A stretch of 29,395 nucleotides of DNA, taken from positions 1 through 29,395 of the IMG/VR virus record IMGVR_UViG_3300021371_000077; one strand, written 5' to 3'. Made by a program: the position numbers and the translations under genes. How positions within the stretch are numbered: the first letter of the stretch is position 1; the number at the start of each line of letters is the position of its first letter. This stretch comes from a virus. This document shows positions 2,653-29,395 of the stretch, one piece after another. Below the pieces are notes generated by a model, which was not told where the DNA came from, made no database searches, and saw only the letters and a program-made list of their open reading frames with translations.

Positions 2653-2857
2653 AATCAAATATAGTGAAATTAATCATCCGCCACCAAAGCGTACTGTTTA
2701 TTTCGAAGATGGGTCATATGCATACGACCATGGCGAAAAATGGATGTATAAGGGTAAAGAGCTGGCAAAACATCCTGACAAGCAGTTGATTGTTGATGCT
2801 ATGCAGGATTGGTTCTTGACTGAAGATTTTAATGAAGAGGGTATTGATGAAGACTAA
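2633..2857 (+). CDS. Small early protein, unknown (74 aa)
   Basis: The frame is open from 2594, but the ATG at 2633 has AAGGAG at 2617-2622 and overlaps the upstream stop, as its neighbours do. The 74 residues include an aromatic pattern (TVYFEDGSYAYDHGEKWMYKG) suggesting a small beta sheet, then a helix and an acidic end. No family is recognised. It sits just before ninG and overlaps it by 11 bases. Confidence 0.6.
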   Translation: MSQVKYKIKYSEINHPPPKRTVYFEDGSYAYDHGEKWMYKGKELAKHPDKQLIVDAMQDWFLTEDFNEEGIDED

Positions 2858-3263
2858 GCTTACAATTGCTAAGCTTGTTGATAAAACAGCGACTGATTTG
2901 CAAAAGCTTGTTAGGCTGAAAGCAGCTGATGCTGTGGGCTTTTGTCAGTGTGTATCTTGCGGAAGTCGAAATCATTTTACGAAGATGGATGGTGGGCACT
3001 TCTTTAGCAGAACGCACTTGAGGTTTAAGTTGTTTATTGAAAATATCCACCCACAATGCAAGCGCTGCAATATGTTGATGGGCGACGCAAAGGTTCACGA
3101 GGGGTATAGGAAATACATGATTGATATGTACGGAGAGCGAAGAATTCAAGCAATGCATCGATTGCTAAACTGGAAAAAGCCCAAGTTTAAGCGTGTTGCT
3201 GTACTTGAGTTTCGAAAAGATATTAAACGACAAATTAAAGAGCTGGAGAATAGATATGAGTAA
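2847..3263 (+). CDS. ninG: NinG (Rap-like) recombination endonuclease
   Basis: 138 residues, shorter than lambda NinG (about 200). It has the family's zinc-binding pair Cys35-x2-Cys38 and Cys71-x2-Cys74. Between them is the HNH-like core: GGHFFSR (residues 49-55), then LRF and ENIHPQCKRCN (65-75). A helical basic C-terminus follows. Lambda NinG/Rap cleaves branched recombination intermediates such as D-loops and Holliday junctions. The ATG at 2847 is chosen because GAGG lies at 2837-2840; the earlier ATG at 2832 has no ribosome site. Finding it right after O/P-like genes supports a lambdoid nin-type region, although few other nin genes are present. Confidence 0.85.
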   Translation: MKTKLTIAKLVDKTATDLQKLVRLKAADAVGFCQCVSCGSRNHFTKMDGGHFFSRTHLRFKLFIENIHPQCKRCNMLMGDAKVHEGYRKYMIDMYGERRIQAMHRLLNWKKPKFKRVAVLEFRKDIKRQIKELENRYE

Positions 3264-8894: not shown

Positions 8895-9733
8895 GTAATA
8901 TAGACGAAAAAATAGAAGATATTATAGAGCCAGAGGAGGCCGATCAACTTGATAATGACGAAATTGAAAAGGTAGATAAGCAGGGCGGCTTTGATAATTT
9001 CAGCGATGAAGAAAAAAAGGCTTATGCTGATGGATGGAGACCCAAGGATGAATACGATGGAGAAAACTGGGCGCCTGCTTCTACATTTAATCGTATAAAA
9101 TCTCAGAACGACGAAATTAAAAAGCTTAAAAAGCAAAATGAAGACAATAATCATCTTCGTGATAGGCTAGAAGAATTAGAAAAAACGGTGACCTCAAATT
9201 CTGAATCAAGTATTGAAGCATTGGAAGTACAGGCTCAAGAAGATTTCGATAACGGTGATCGTGAAGCATATGAGCAAAAACAAGAAAAGATTAGGCAGCT
9301 TAAAAAGAAAAGTGTAAAACAAAATGATCCGCAACAACCATATGAAATAAAAGAATGGCAGGAAAAAAATGAATATATTTTTGAGGTATCAGATAAATCA
9401 TATTTTGCAAAAGAGGCATTCAAAAATCTAAATGAACATTTTCCTGACGCCCCCCTGAGTCAAAAATTAAAGAGGCTCGATGAGCTAGTAGATGAAAAAT
9501 TTTCCAAAAAATCACAAAAGAATTTAAATCGCGAACGGCCTTCTATGACATCCTCAAGACCAAGTCAAGGAGGAAGAACTGTTTATGCTAATTTTAAAGA
9601 TCTTCCAAAAGCTGAAAGAGAAAAATGCCACAAAAGCACTGTTTACAACCATCGCAATGAGGATATGTGGAAAAAAAGGACTGAAGATAATTATCTAAAA
9701 AATTATAACCAAAAATTACAGGAGAAAAACTAA
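8891..9733 (+). CDS. Scaffolding-like protein
   Basis: 280 highly charged residues, starting on the stop of the gene before (ATGA). The first ~30 are acidic. A YADGWRPKDEYDGENWAP segment (about 46-63) is a short motif seen in many phage scaffold or internal head proteins. A coiled coil follows (about 70-140), and then a basic, disordered C-terminus ending in Lys/Asn-rich helices. An acidic start, a central coiled coil and a basic capsid-binding end are the general build of scaffolds such as P22 gp8 (303 residues). Position between portal and coat protein agrees. No protease domain is seen. Confidence 0.65.
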   Translation: MSNIDEKIEDIIEPEEADQLDNDEIEKVDKQGGFDNFSDEEKKAYADGWRPKDEYDGENWAPASTFNRIKSQNDEIKKLKKQNEDNNHLRDRLEELEKTVTSNSESSIEALEVQAQEDFDNGDREAYEQKQEKIRQLKKKSVKQNDPQQPYEIKEWQEKNEYIFEVSDKSYFAKEAFKNLNEHFPDAPLSQKLKRLDELVDEKFSKKSQKNLNRERPSMTSSRPSQGGRTVYANFKDLPKAEREKCHKSTVYNHRNEDMWKKRTEDNYLKNYNQKLQEKN

Positions 9734-10098
9734 TGCCATCAAAAAAACAACCCAAGACACCTAAGTCACCCGAAATTCAAAAAGAACCGAAAGCTAGAGC
9801 AGAAAGAAAAAGAGTGCCGCTGGGCATAGGTTCATTACAATTCGTTGTTCCGCAGGAGCTAGAAGACACCATTGATGAATATGTTTATAACTACCCGATT
9901 GATGACAATATTTCATTACCAGGAATGCTTAGAGCCGGTTATGAAATTGTTTTAGACAATAACAATAATCGTTATGAAATATCGGCCGGAGCACATAATC
10001 ATGTTCTTGTTAGAATCAAAGCAGAATATGCCAAGCAAGATGAAGATGCAGAGCACGAAATAATTGCAAATAGATATCAATCAACTATGCCAATTTAG
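9733..10098 (+). CDS. Hypothetical structural-module protein (121 aa)
   Basis: The first ~28 residues are a Lys/Pro-rich basic tail; the rest looks like a compact alpha/beta domain (LQFVVPQELEDTIDEY, ISLPGMLRAGYEIV, HNHVLVRIKAEY). It starts on the last base of the scaffold gene. No family is recognised; a capsid- or scaffold-binding role is possible from position alone. Confidence 0.5.
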   Translation: MPSKKQPKTPKSPEIQKEPKARAERKRVPLGIGSLQFVVPQELEDTIDEYVYNYPIDDNISLPGMLRAGYEIVLDNNNNRYEISAGAHNHVLVRIKAEYAKQDEDAEHEIIANRYQSTMPI

Positions 10099-10106
10099 GT
10101 TTGTTA

Positions 10107-10313
10107 ATGCCTGAAAACTTAATGATGACGCTATATAGATTAAAGCTTAAGGCTCAAAAAGCTTTCGATATTGAGCTGCTAACGCTTCTTCTAAAGAATT
10201 GGCCATTTCTGTTTAGCGCAGAATTTGAAAAAAAGCTGAATAAACAAGCTCTACAGGTAAAGCAGATACATGCAGAGCTTTACGCGGCGGCTAATGACTA
10301 TAAATATTACTAA
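10107..10313 (+). CDS. Small helical protein (68 aa), unknown
   Basis: A TTG at 10101 is in frame, but the ATG at 10107 has AGG seven bases before it and is preferred. The 68 residues are leucine-rich, basic and helical (LYRLKLKAQKAF, LLTLLLKNWPFLF), and end in a Tyr-rich tail. It overlaps the following fusion gene by 20 bases. No function can be assigned. Confidence 0.5.
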   Translation: MPENLMMTLYRLKLKAQKAFDIELLTLLLKNWPFLFSAEFEKKLNKQALQVKQIHAELYAAANDYKYY

Positions 10314-10887
10314 AACAGCAGTTGATAAACTTGTTGCTCCCACGATTGGAAATCAATCACGCCATTATGATAATCAGCTCAAAGGATTTGGTGTTAGGAT
10401 TACTTCAAAAGGTGTTAAAGCATTTTTTCTTGAGACAACGATTGGCGGGAAGCGGAAAAGGCTAACGCTTGGCAGATATCCTTCTTTGTCAGTTGAGATG
10501 GCAAGAAAGGAAGCGCAAAAGTTCTTAGGTAAGCTTGCAATTAAAAAAAACAAACAAAGGCTGTCAGTCTTAACAAAAAATAAAGGCAAAGATGGTTCTA
10601 AGGAATCTACAAAAGTCTACGTCATGATAGATAAAAATACTGGCTACTACAAAATCGGCAGGTCTAAAAACCCTAAGATTAGGGAGAAAACATTGCAATC
10701 AGAAAAGCCAACAATTGAAATGCTGTTCAATCATGACGCTAAGACTGTTGATGAAAAGGTTCTTCATTCAAAATTTTCAGAAAAAAGAGTTCGTGGGGAA
10801 TGGTTTGACTTGTGTGGCTCAGATTTATCAATGATTTCAGATTATTTTAACAAGCAAAACAAGCAAGAATCCTTCACAAACATTTAA
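10294..10887 (+). CDS. Integrase arm-binding domain fused to T5orf172 (GIY-YIG-like) domain
   Basis: 197 residues from the ATG at 10294. Residues 1-85 match the N-terminal arm-DNA-binding domain of P4-type tyrosine integrases (DUF4102): start helix TKTAVDKL, then YDNQLKGFGVRIT, FLETTIGGKRKRLTLGRYPSLSVEMAR and EAQKFLG. The integrase core and catalytic domains are absent. A Lys/Ser linker (86-106) leads to a T5orf172/MUG113 domain (107-175): VYVMID, YYKIGRSKNPKIRE, Glu154 in DEKVLH, and GEWFDL. This family is related to GIY-YIG nucleases, and Tyr109, Tyr118/119, Arg123 and Glu154 sit where the conserved residues are expected. An in-frame ATG at 10270 is possible, but the integrase homology starts at 10294. 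It lies among head genes, 18 kb from the phage's own integrase. A homing-type endonuclease or a DNA-binding regulator are the obvious options. Confidence 0.75.
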   Translation: MTINITKTAVDKLVAPTIGNQSRHYDNQLKGFGVRITSKGVKAFFLETTIGGKRKRLTLGRYPSLSVEMARKEAQKFLGKLAIKKNKQRLSVLTKNKGKDGSKESTKVYVMIDKNTGYYKIGRSKNPKIREKTLQSEKPTIEMLFNHDAKTVDEKVLHSKFSEKRVRGEWFDLCGSDLSMISDYFNKQNKQESFTNI

Positions 10888-10889
10888 TG

Positions 10890-10918
10890 TTGACAAAACA
10901 ATATATATAATATATAGT
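10890..10918 (+). promoter_or_regulatory. Strong promoter ahead of the capsid genes
   Basis: TTGACA (10890-10895), 17 bases, TATAGT (10913-10918, five of six), inside a run of alternating A and T. It begins just after the stop of the fusion gene and would give an approximately 142-base leader before the decoration-like gene. A dedicated promoter here would raise capsid protein output above the rest of the late operon and would bypass any polarity from the inserted fusion gene. Confidence 0.6.
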
Positions 10919-11066: not shown

Positions 11067-11585
11067 ATGGCAGGATTTACATTAATCGAATCTGCACCTG
11101 ATGATTCTTTAACTACTGTAGAAGTCAAAGCCGCTCATGGCCAAGACGTAGCAGTAGGGGATATCGTTAGTTTAATCGGTGAAATCTCACCACACGCAAA
11201 TCCTTATGTAGCGCACACAGTATCAGGCGCAGGCAACCCAATTTTTGGCGTTGTAATAGCAATAGACTGGGAAACTGCAACAGATACAAACAAAAGCTAT
11301 TTGCCAGCTGGTACTGCTGGTACTTTAAAAGTCGTAACAGATGGCCTTTTTTCATGTGAAGCCGATGCTGCAGTTCTTGTAACAAATTTCGGTCAAAACC
11401 TTGCAGTTAATGTAACTGTTCCCGCCGCTGGTCGCAGTCAGATGACACTAAACGTTGCGAGTGCAGGAGCTGCATCAGATCAAATGAGACTTGTAGGATG
11501 TGAATCAGCGAGCAAACTAGCTGCTGGCGACAAATTGTATGTCCGCATTAATGAATCACAAGTCAAACAAGAAGCAGGAGTATAA
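11067..11585 (+). CDS. Capsid decoration/stabilisation-like protein
   Basis: 172 residues, first gene after the capsid promoter, with GGAG at 11055-11058. The sequence is Ala/Val/Gly-rich and beta-forming (VAVGDIVSLIG, PIFGVVIAID, GTLKVVTDGLFSCEAD, GDKLYVRIN), the pattern of small trimeric beta-barrel decoration or head-fibre proteins encoded next to the coat gene. It has no Cys-rich, membrane or catalytic motif. Partner of the major capsid protein encoded four bases downstream. The call rests on composition and position. Confidence 0.55.
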   Translation: MAGFTLIESAPDDSLTTVEVKAAHGQDVAVGDIVSLIGEISPHANPYVAHTVSGAGNPIFGVVIAIDWETATDTNKSYLPAGTAGTLKVVTDGLFSCEADAAVLVTNFGQNLAVNVTVPAAGRSQMTLNVASAGAASDQMRLVGCESASKLAAGDKLYVRINESQVKQEAGV

Positions 11586-11588
11586 GCC

Positions 11589-12515
11589 ATGACTATGACA
11601 CGAGGAACTTTAGTTGAAGCGTTGAGAAAAGATTTAGATGAACTAATTGAAGTTAGTGCAAATAATGAACCTGATGCGCCAAGCCAATATATGACTGTAA
11701 AAAATTCAGTCTTAGCAGAAGAAAAAGGAATTTTGTATCAACCTCTCGGTGCTGCCTTAATAAAGCCTGAAGGGGCAAATATTAAGGAGGACATGTTTAA
11801 CTCGATTCTTACGTTTAGGCAAAAGCATGATACGTATGCAAAAAGCGTTGCTTTTACAAAAGAATGCATCGCTGACATCGAAGGCGCTGGGAATGGTAGT
11901 ATTTTAGATCGAACTGCAAAACTTATTTCTGTGATGGAAAAAGCAAAACATCAACAAGCTACGGACGTATTAAACAACGCGACCAATGCTGCTAATGTTA
12001 TGAGTCCAGGTGGTCAGCCGCTAATTAGCCTGGCACAAGATGGCGGTGTCGGTGGCGTTAACTATTCTAACCGATTGGCTGCGCTAGGTGCTTTATCTAT
12101 TGCAAGTTTAAAAGATGCCGTTACTGCAGTACACAATATGCGTGATGCTAGAGGAATGCGCCAAAACATCAAGCCTACACGCTTACTATGTGGCTCAACC
12201 CTTGAGTTTACAGCAGCGGAGCTTTTAGGCAGCGATCATTTACCAAATAGCGACTTTAACAATATCAACAGTGTGAAAACACTTGGCGTATTGTCGAAAG
12301 GTTACATGGTGGATAGCTATATTGATAGTCAAACGCGATGGTTCTTGCAAACTGACGTGCAAGATGCTAACGAAGGCCTTATTATCTACAATCGTCAAGA
12401 CATCGAAACAAGAACACACATCGATGAGAAAACCTTGAATGTTATCGTTAGCTCTGACTTCCGTCGTAGCGCTGGCTGGATGAACCCACAAGCAATATTT
12501 ATGGGTAATATCTAA
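11589..12515 (+). CDS. Major capsid protein (HK97-fold expected)
   Basis: 308 residues, a normal length for a compact HK97-type coat protein. It has an N-terminal helical stretch, then beta/alpha segments with features seen in coat proteins: KEDMFNSILTFRQKHDTY (extended-loop-like), the long central helix SVMEKAKHQQATDVLNNATNAA, the domain IKPTRLLCGSTLEF, and the C-terminal RWFLQTDVQDANEGLIIYNRQDIETRTHIDEKTLNVIVSSDFRRSAGWMNPQAIFMG. That ending, with paired Phe/Arg/Gly-Trp near the C-terminus, is like Mu gpT-type and podovirus coat proteins. AGGAG precedes the start. It follows the scaffold, has its own promoter, and the connector genes come next. Confidence 0.8.
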   Translation: MTMTRGTLVEALRKDLDELIEVSANNEPDAPSQYMTVKNSVLAEEKGILYQPLGAALIKPEGANIKEDMFNSILTFRQKHDTYAKSVAFTKECIADIEGAGNGSILDRTAKLISVMEKAKHQQATDVLNNATNAANVMSPGGQPLISLAQDGGVGGVNYSNRLAALGALSIASLKDAVTAVHNMRDARGMRQNIKPTRLLCGSTLEFTAAELLGSDHLPNSDFNNINSVKTLGVLSKGYMVDSYIDSQTRWFLQTDVQDANEGLIIYNRQDIETRTHIDEKTLNVIVSSDFRRSAGWMNPQAIFMGNI

Positions 12516-28253: not shown

Positions 28254-28302
28254 AACCTTGCCAAGGTTGAGGTCGCGAGTTCGAATCTCGTTTCCCGCTC
28301 CA
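28254..28302 (+). other. attP: attP core: 3' part of a tRNA-Gly(GCC) gene
   Basis: The 49 bases correspond to a tRNA from the anticodon stem to CCA. Parts: half the anticodon stem (AACC), loop with TT-GCC-AA (GCC anticodon at 28260-28262), GGTT, variable loop GAGGTC, T-arm GCGAG-TTCGAAT-CTCGT, acceptor 3' strand TTCCCGC, T and CCA. The DNA upstream (28200-28253) does not resemble a D-arm or acceptor 5' strand, so it is not a working tRNA. Phage genes lie on both sides and an integrase begins 0.9 kb downstream. This matches a phage attP that restores the 3' end of a host tRNA-Gly gene on integration. Confidence 0.85.
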
Positions 28303-28337: not shown

Positions 28338-28550
28338 TCACATATCATTAATTTTGTCCCATATATAGAAAATAAAATAGCCCGTAAAAGATAAAAGCAA
28401 GTCTAAGAAAAATAGGCCACCAACGACGCAGAAAGAACGCTTCCACGACAAGTCAACGAGATAGACCATAGCTAAAACACCCAAGCCAAATTGCATAGCG
28501 CCTATGATTGCCAAACGCCAAGCGTACTCATCTTCATCTTCCCTTATCAT
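28338..28550 (-). CDS. Small membrane protein, paralogue A (70 aa)
   Basis: 70 residues. An acidic N-terminus (REDEDEY) precedes two membrane segments (about 12-32 and 40-62), ending IFYIWDKINDM. The middle DLSWKRSFCVVGG matches HLSSQRSFCIAVI of the gene upstream, and the C-terminal IFYIWDKIND is identical, with matching DNA (30 bases with one difference). The start overlaps the upstream gene's end by 17 bases. The family is unknown, but two related genes in a row and a third with the same junction suggest local duplication. As small, doubly spanning membrane proteins near attP, superinfection exclusion would be a plausible but unproven role. Confidence 0.55.
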   Translation of the reverse strand: MIREDEDEYAWRLAIIGAMQFGLGVLAMVYLVDLSWKRSFCVVGGLFFLDLLLSFTGYFIFYIWDKINDM

Positions 28551-28778
28551 TGATTTTGTCCCATATATAGAAAATTATATAAACAATAGCCAATAAAAAA
28601 TAAATAATAAGTAAGCATAAGAAAGATATGATGACAGCAATGCAGAAAGAACGCTGCGACGACAAGTGAACGAAGTTGCTCATTACTAAAGCCCCGAAGA
28701 AACACGCATTAAAAGCTAAAAGTGCATCTAACATGCTCATCTTTACTCCCCCCCCTTATCATTGATTTTGTCCCATAT
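28344..28778 (-). repeat. Three direct copies of a gene-junction repeat
   Basis: Copies at 28344-28373, 28546-28575 and 28753-28778. The first two match in 29 of 30 bases. The third matches the second exactly over 26 bases (28541-28566 against 28753-28778). Each copy sits at the end of a small membrane gene: it encodes the shared C-terminus in A and B, a frame-shifted end in the third, and the start codon of A. A further 32-base block (28428-28459 and 28642-28673, three differences) links A and B. This is direct evidence for tandem duplication. Confidence 0.8.
28534..28740 (-). CDS. Small membrane protein, paralogue B (68 aa)
   Basis: 68 residues; GGGG-rich ribosome site (minus strand, from 28755) five bases before the ATG. 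It has two hydrophobic segments (about 4-22 and 31-57: IAVIISFLCLLIIYFLLAIVYIIFYIW), with HLSSQRSFC between them and DKINDKGR at the end. It shares that layout and the ending with paralogue A downstream, and 32 bases around the RSFC codons match with three differences. The run of eight G (28748-28755, as C on the plus strand) makes up the ribosome site, so slippage there could change expression. Confidence 0.55.
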   Translation of the reverse strand: MSMLDALLAFNACFFGALVMSNFVHLSSQRSFCIAVIISFLCLLIIYFLLAIVYIIFYIWDKINDKGR

Positions 28779-28908: not shown

Positions 28909-29218
28909 CGCCACCATCCACTATGCTCTTAATAATATTCATAAGCTCCTCAACATTTTCCATAGCTATCTCACATTCATCATAAGTATATGACAGCACC
29001 CACCAATAGGCTTTTTTTTGCCAATCTAAATTATTGGAAACATCCAATGAAACAATACAATATTTATCGCCCTTACAAACCATAAACTTAATAAATTTGC
29101 CAGTATGTGGCGGAAGTATGCGAACACACCATGATGAATCAAAATTTAACTCCGGTATTTTCATGGCCAAGTTTGCCAACTCAAGCGCTTTATCACGTGC
29201 TATTTTCTCAAAATTCAT
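28898..29218 (-). CDS. Protein of 106 aa in the integrase operon, unknown
   Basis: 106 residues; AAGGAG lies before the ATG, which overlaps the integrase stop (ATGA), so the two genes are coupled. An N-terminal helix (FEKIARDKALELANLAMKI) is followed by a beta-rich middle (SWCVRILP, KFIKFMVCKGDKYCIVSLDVS, KKAYWWVLSYT) and an acidic helical end. No HTH is obvious, so it is not a clear excisionase. The alpha-beta build is like small immunity or regulatory proteins, but no family is recognised. Confidence 0.6.
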   Translation of the reverse strand: MNFEKIARDKALELANLAMKIPELNFDSSWCVRILPPHTGKFIKFMVCKGDKYCIVSLDVSNNLDWQKKAYWWVLSYTYDECEIAMENVEELMNIIKSIVDGGDEH

Positions 29219-29395
29219 CTTGTTGGCTCCTTTTTATGCTCGTCTCTAAAATACACTTTGCGGACCATTTTTTCTGAGCTATGACCAGCTTTTTCAGCTG
29301 CAACGCCATAGCCGTCTGTGTTAACAATATACGTTATTGCGTATGCTCGTATGTCATACAATGTAAATGATTCTGCCAAAAGGCCGGAATCGATG
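29215..29395 (-). CDS. int: Tyrosine integrase, C-terminal end (partial)
   Basis: Only the last 59 codons are inside the window; the N-terminus lies beyond 29395. They contain the end of a phage tyrosine recombinase: FTLYDIRAYAITYI (Arg16 of the visible part, in the position of the second catalytic Arg), KAGHSSEKMV (His38), and VYFRDE with the nucleophile Tyr48. The family's usual His in HxLR is Tyr here (Tyr13), a known variation in some integrases. It would recombine attP (28254-28302) with the host tRNA-Gly gene. It is the first visible gene of the leftward operon and overlaps the next gene by four bases (ATGA). In-frame reading has no internal stop. Confidence 0.85.
   Translation of the reverse strand, partial: IDSGLLAESFTLYDIRAYAITYIVNTDGYGVAAEKAGHSSEKMVRKVYFRDEHKKEPTR

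Follow-up and report, generated by a model that had tools for sequence, protein, structure and literature searches.

The sequence analyzed here is the IMG/VR viral record IMGVR_UViG_3300021371_000077, positions 1 to 29,395, and all 29,395 nt of it are referred to below as the window. Within its head operon lies a chimeric gene, which encodes in a single reading frame an arm-type DNA-binding domain followed by a lysine-rich linker and then by a GIY-YIG superfamily domain of the T5orf172/MUG113 type (Table 1). An alternative in-frame ATG is present upstream of the gene; the start given in Table 1 is favored because it coincides with the start of the homologous integrases.

Table 1. Features of the window at the chimeric gene, in the neighboring head operon, and at the right end of the record
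Feature	Position	Strand	Remarks and basis
Conserved small head-operon gene, left flank, after the scaffold gene	9733..10098	+	Alignment with five relatives, synteny
70-codon ORF overlapping the start of the chimeric gene by 20 nt	10101..10313	+	No family
Alternative in-frame start (ATG) upstream of the chimeric gene	10270	+	
Chimeric gene	10294..10887	+	One intact frame, 197 codons plus stop
Arm-type DNA-binding domain, Arm-DNA-bind_3 (old DUF4102)	10294..10542	+	Residues 1-83; Pfam, model
Lysine-rich linker	10543..10608	+	Residues 84-105; translation; low model confidence
T5orf172/MUG113 domain, GIY-YIG superfamily	10609..10854	+	Residues 106-187; Pfam, alignment, model
Strong promoter-like site, TTGACA-17-TATAGT, just after the chimeric gene	10890..10918	+	
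172-codon gene, right flank, placed like the ~190-codon pre-capsid gene	11067..11585	+	Synteny; no family hit
Major capsid gene, Mu gpT-like	11589..12515	+	
Candidate attachment core, 47-bp match to a tRNA-Gly gene 3' end	28256..28302	+	
Likely phage tyrosine integrase, last 59 codons plus stop	29215..29394	-	Cut by the record end; by eye

When the chimeric protein was compared with Pfam, Arm-DNA-bind_3 was matched with E = 6e-14 and 52.4 bits (cut-off 27), followed by MUG113 (E = 1e-9) and T5orf172 (E = 8e-7), all of which exceed the curated Pfam cut-offs. The original prediction, which had proposed DUF4102 similarity for residues 1 to 85 and a T5orf172 nuclease-like domain behind it, was therefore right about both halves, with MUG113 scoring slightly higher than T5orf172. 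It was also right that the integrase core and catalytic domains are lost, as Pfam matched neither at the chimeric locus; the R-HxxR-Y catalytic domain of a tyrosine recombinase is absent from the chimeric protein, which has the arm domain only. The rest of the window likewise gave no convincing hit for either integrase domain, core or catalytic, and therefore the gene is not a frameshifted integrase. Indeed, the frameshift named earlier as a possible refutation, one that would have removed the rest of an integrase, was not seen: the ORF is uninterrupted, no other integrase fragment is present at the locus, and a truncated or frameshifted integrase was rejected on this ground. A remnant of an excised element was likewise rejected, as no direct repeats were found on the flanks of the gene.

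The gene was expected to lie inside the head operon, and it is indeed located between head genes and a strong promoter-like site. In five distant relatives (L069 and L168 to L171; about 28% capsid identity), the gene order is portal, GroES or small genes, scaffold, a ~150-codon gene, a ~190-codon gene, and capsid, with nothing between the ~150-codon and ~190-codon genes. The window keeps this order, plus the chimeric gene and the overlapping 70-codon ORF between the two small genes, of which the left one aligns weakly with its counterparts in the five relatives (18 to 30% identity). This survey of the same site in related phages, which had been proposed as a check, found the flanking head genes present and the chimeric gene absent in all five. 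Because the gene order is kept in relatives without it, the chimeric gene is accessory, and the 70-codon ORF may belong to the same insertion. A capsid search of IMG/VR found no close relatives of the phage. At some distance from this locus, a NinG-like gene (2832-3263) lies upstream of the packaging genes.

The closest arm domains to that of the phage belong to full-length integrases of Legionellales, with 58 to 65% identity, and the similarity of the chimeric protein to these integrases ends at residue 83, i.e., at the end of the arm domain. The phage arm retains 18 of the 19 positions at which at least 95% of 51 Legionellales integrases agree. An AlphaFold2 model of the arm half, built with relatives supplied, reached a pLDDT of about 90 and matched the arm domain of the HPI integrase (3jtz) with a Z score of 13.1 over 77 residues at 1.3 Å, and 3rmp, whose title refers to attP recognition by P4-like integrases, with a Z score of 12.2. 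Across the P4-like integrases (HPI, HAI7; 3jtz, 3ju0, and 3rmp), the same arm fold was found with Z scores of 12 to 13 over 75 to 78 residues; unlike these enzymes, the chimeric protein contains no core-binding or catalytic recombinase domain. Altogether, the comparisons point to a P4-like tyrosine integrase, encoded by a satellite-like island of the Legionellales type, as the likely source of the captured phage arm.

The donor integrases reside in Legionellales elements of 8 to 23 kb with tRNA-end repeats. All five elements fetched (L180 to L184, e.g., L181:163-11087) have a doubled site near both ends and, just outside the doubled sites, terminal direct repeats of 45 to 73 bp that are 92 to 100% identical and can be read as tRNA 3' ends. 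The elements sampled contain an AlpA-like helix-turn-helix gene (HTH_17, phrog_2528), and a DUF927 primase (phrog_1139, E 2e-101) was matched in the two elements tested, and two further elements have equally sized ORFs; their cargo consists of AbiE, a DUF1016/YhcG (PDC-S02) nuclease, or DUF4238. In content, this set of genes corresponds to that of P4/PICI-type satellites carrying anti-phage cargo, hence the term satellite-like, and the five fetched elements look like a satellite family. In helper-embedded Gram-negative PICIs, a doubled, co-oriented attP motif flanks the core, and binding of this motif by the integrase arm has been suggested (PMC10111431). Like PICIs, which represent the likely kind of target, the Legionellales elements have int, alpA, and primase genes and a doubled motif on either side of the core; in contrast to PICIs, no packaging genes were identified among the element genes sampled. 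A 69%-identical integrase together with the doubled site was also found on an IMG/VR contig (L176).

The doubled site is an 11-bp repeat, TTCGACACRYRTTCGACAC, located just inside each end of the elements. Upstream of the Legionellales integrase start, the best period of the tandem repeat was 11 bp in 39 of 45 distinct regions, and in most cases shuffled sequence rarely equaled it. The first integrase group carries the repeat TTCGACAC(A/G)(T/C)(A/G) in 2 to 7 copies, and the second, the GTCTACAT-type group, whose arm domains form one clade (support 98/100), carries the repeat GTCTACATGG. The doubled TTCGACAC-type repeat was present in 49 of 140 Legionellales genomes and in 0 of 228 other gammaproteobacterial genomes, aside from one Legionella genome included as the center, and a reversed control pattern was never found in the genomes scanned. 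After merging, 83 repeat sites were obtained: 31 precede an arm-domain integrase of the same strand by no more than 200 nt, 18 are co-oriented partners 7.8 to 22.9 kb downstream of integrase-linked sites, and 34 are tied neither to a detected arm integrase nor to its partner site and may belong to other integrases, contig ends, or remnants. Given the layout at the element ends and the doubled motif of PICIs (PMC10111431), the repeat is inferred, with good support, to be the arm-type site of the integrase. Since the repeats are found just inside both element ends, they would lie on either side of the core in the excised circle.

Eleven arm positions fully separate TTCGACAC-type from GTCTACAT-type integrases. 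At six of these, the phage arm has the TTCGACAC-type residue (R23, Y25, A43, F45, R61, and P63), S22 is the residue exclusive to GTCTACAT-type integrases, and the other four match neither set. In a tree, the phage arm falls outside the GTCTACAT-type clade (support 98/100). It departs from both integrase groups at strand positions including K39, T49, and R54, and therefore its own site may differ. A tandem site of the TTCGACAC/TCTACAT type was not found in the window, the flanks of the chimeric gene included; the exact octamer is expected 0.3 times in a 29-kb record, and its absence is thus weak evidence. Avoidance of the site by the phage was considered and set aside, as TCKACAYR is absent against 3.5 to 4.2 expected occurrences but is a degenerate motif picked post hoc.

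The nuclease domain of the chimeric protein retains Y109, K120-I121-G122, R130, E154, H158, and G168-F171 (GEWF), and this tyrosine, the K-I-G motif, R130, E154, H158, and GEWF are invariant in 16 of 16 aligned relatives. Its AlphaFold2 model, also built with relatives supplied, had a pLDDT of 89. The ten best structural matches to this model were all GIY-YIG-fold proteins, with modest Z scores of 6.0 at best; the rows for HIGLE, Slx1, and I-TevI span Z scores of 3.8 to 6.0, with Z 6.0 for HIGLE, up to 5.8 for Slx1, and 3.9 for I-TevI, and a UPF0213 protein was also among the ten. Foldseek alone gave no significant match for the domain, with GIY-YIG proteins rising to the top after realignment; assignment of the nuclease half to the GIY-YIG family rests mainly on Pfam.

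The nuclease half is 48 to 77% identical to proteins encoded on environmental viral contigs, and the N-termini joined to this module elsewhere fall into four groups, which share no relationship with one another or with the arm domain. By these alignments, the nuclease half is a mobile module passing between proteins, and the two halves of the chimera have separate histories. On IMG/VR contigs L054 to L067, closely similar T5orf172/MUG113 C-termini sit on several unrelated N-termini, an apparent case of N-terminus exchange among related phages. Vibrio phages 1.265.O (L036:3761-4357) and 1.016.O (L037:3722-4303) each encode, upstream of capsid or head-morphogenesis genes, a T5orf172 protein whose size is similar but whose N-terminus is unrelated. 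A search of 369 gammaproteobacterial genomes at E 1e-10, run without a positive control, did not recover the module. A Streptomyces plasmid match across both halves of the chimeric protein was discarded, as it contains no arm domain. The arm-nuclease fusion is known from this single sequence; a rigid DNA pattern, LGRYP...GEWF, which recovers the chimeric gene in the window and would miss other spacings or motifs, gave no second fusion in IMG/VR.

The fusion had been described as no standard phage gene, a claim that stands in part. T5orf172 on exchangeable DNA-binding domains is a known kind of phage gene (PMC8263062; main text of PMC10448857), and its combination with a DNA-binding domain derived from a mobile element is already known from Odn and its coliphage counterparts. 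Coliphage T5orf172 proteins include homing endonucleases and RepA_N-T5orf172 proteins, some of them satellite-derived and some encoded near capsid genes; the partners given in the main text are zinc-finger (CapR, DUF723, and DUF4397) and RepA_N domains, and the term "Arm DNA" is absent from that main text (PMC10448857). The part that holds concerns the integrase-arm version, which was absent from the open-access literature searched, as well as from IMG/VR by the rigid pattern.

The closest precedent in design is Odn (Gp88/ORF88) of Vibrio phage ICP1, an origin-directed nuclease composed of RepA_N and T5orf172 whose function has been tested (PMC8263062). In that study, a retained arginine and glutamate were taken as a sign of nuclease activity, and 42% identity between the RepA_N domains of Odn and PLE1 was enough for cleavage (PMC8263062), a value exceeded by the identity of the phage arm to the donor integrases. 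Like Odn, the chimeric protein has an N-terminal domain akin to a DNA-binding protein of a mobile parasite and a C-terminal T5orf172 domain, in the same order, and the two are of similar size (226 aa for Odn and 197 aa here). Unlike Odn, in which RepA_N is paired with a satellite replication origin, the captured domain is an integrase arm, and the predicted target is therefore an attachment region. The T5orf172 domains of the two proteins are only distantly similar, and with Arm-DNA-bind_3 in place of RepA_N, the chimeric protein is therefore an Odn-type variant, not a strict member.

We consider the odds about even that the product of the chimeric gene is an element-directed nuclease whose targets are the attachment arms of rival islands. 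Because its docking piece is most like those of small, defense-carrying islands of Legionella relatives, the phage may use it to cut rival elements. In the proposed mechanism, the arm domain would dock the protein on the arm-type sites of an element, predicted to be tandem 11-bp TTCGACAC-type repeats, and the GIY-YIG domain would then nick or cut the DNA near these sites; with the attachment region destroyed, excision, integration, or spread of the element would be blocked. With sites on either side of the attachment core, the nuclease would hit integrated and circular forms of the element alike, and as the phage record contains no such site, the phage would not cut itself and would be spared. 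Binding, site preference, cleavage, host, and benefit to the phage are what we infer in this model. Against it stand the host searches described below, the arm residues shared with neither integrase group, the late position of the gene, the single known sequence, and the 34 unassigned repeat sites. A putative nuclease against rival integrated elements, one of the roles originally offered, draws support from the donor integrases, the candidate arm site, and the Odn precedent, whereas action on the phage's own attP, also offered, is unsupported, with no matching site in the window.

Domain-capture nucleases described in the literature searched are only those directed at satellite origins. If the proposed function is true, there would be a second route, besides replication origins, for turning a satellite's DNA-binding protein against the satellite, with the element's own recombination sites serving as the cutting address. 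With slightly less than even confidence, we propose that phages build attachment-site-directed nucleases from the integrase arm of a rival and a mobile GIY-YIG module; if cutting at arm sites is true, domain capture from rivals would be a general phage strategy, and attachment sites would be a second weak point of satellites and defense islands. The finding supplies a candidate address, TTCGACACRYRTTCGACAC, a list of carrier elements, and donor integrases for comparison. It also yields a set of Legionellales satellite-like defense islands with matched integrases and candidate arm-type sites.

The main rival of the element-directed nuclease is a free-standing homing endonuclease that would cut the junction of the small head gene and the ~172-codon gene in phages without it and be copied there by repair, with the arm as its DNA-binding part; we regard this as unlikely, but far from negligible. 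T5orf172 is a recognized phage homing lineage in which DNA-binding domains are shuffled and which occurs around capsid clusters as well (main text of PMC10448857), and T5orf172 homing endonucleases share with the chimera a nuclease domain and a DNA-binding domain at the opposite end. Moreover, the gene breaks an order otherwise conserved in the five relatives, which lack a gene there, and Vibrio phages also have T5orf172 genes upstream of capsid genes. The late head operon is later than expected for a defense-breaking nuclease and fits a homing endonuclease at least equally well. However, neither the flanks nor the whole window contains a TTCGACAC/TCTACAT-type tandem site, the protein's own site being a predicted one, and the nearest relatives of the arm are the integrases of a single host-borne element family rather than members of a phage homing lineage; moreover, the five relatives are all too distant for a base-level view of the empty site.

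Alternatively, the protein might regulate either integration of the phage itself or a resident integrase, holding arm sites without cutting, as a competitor or excision factor. Binding to arm sites would be expected of a lone arm domain, and the phage probably has a temperate lifestyle, as suggested by its candidate tRNA-Gly core. The phage's own integrase was originally placed 18 kb away from the chimeric gene, and a likely C-terminal fragment is indeed found there, but only 59 codons of it are in the window and Pfam lends it no support; nothing similar was found in the phage collection either. The visible end of this integrase is unlike the arm-donor integrases, which together with the retained catalytic residues and the lack of a matching doubled site near the candidate core makes a regulator improbable. 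The arm domain as a copy from the phage's own integrase found no support in the same comparison, which covered the C-terminal end of that integrase.

We likewise give little credence to a by-product, i.e., a chance recombination fusion in the head operon that is expressed but lacks a selected function, or a decaying homing gene: one sequence is known and the IMG/VR fusion pattern gave no second example, but the conserved residues are kept in both halves and the frame is intact. An assembly chimera in the metagenome record, conceivable for a single viral contig for which no second assembly was found, is highly improbable, as the junction is in frame and coincides with a domain boundary that includes a linker, the same head operon continues on either side, and both halves are close to the neighboring genes in base composition.

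Exact copies of the candidate tRNA-Gly core were found in four sampled gammaproteobacteria, and in the Legionellales searched every match differed at one or more positions; no close arm domain was present in ten genomes that match the core closely. A closely related prophage was not found among 140 Legionellales genomes, and Legionellales as the host is unsupported by the core and prophage searches. Beside the core, the 26-nt sequence CCCTTATCATTGATTTTGTCCCATAT is present at 28339-28778 in three copies about 205 nt apart, along with longer partial repeats of 91 and 69 nt with 73 to 75% identity; small membrane-protein genes have probably been duplicated here in tandem.
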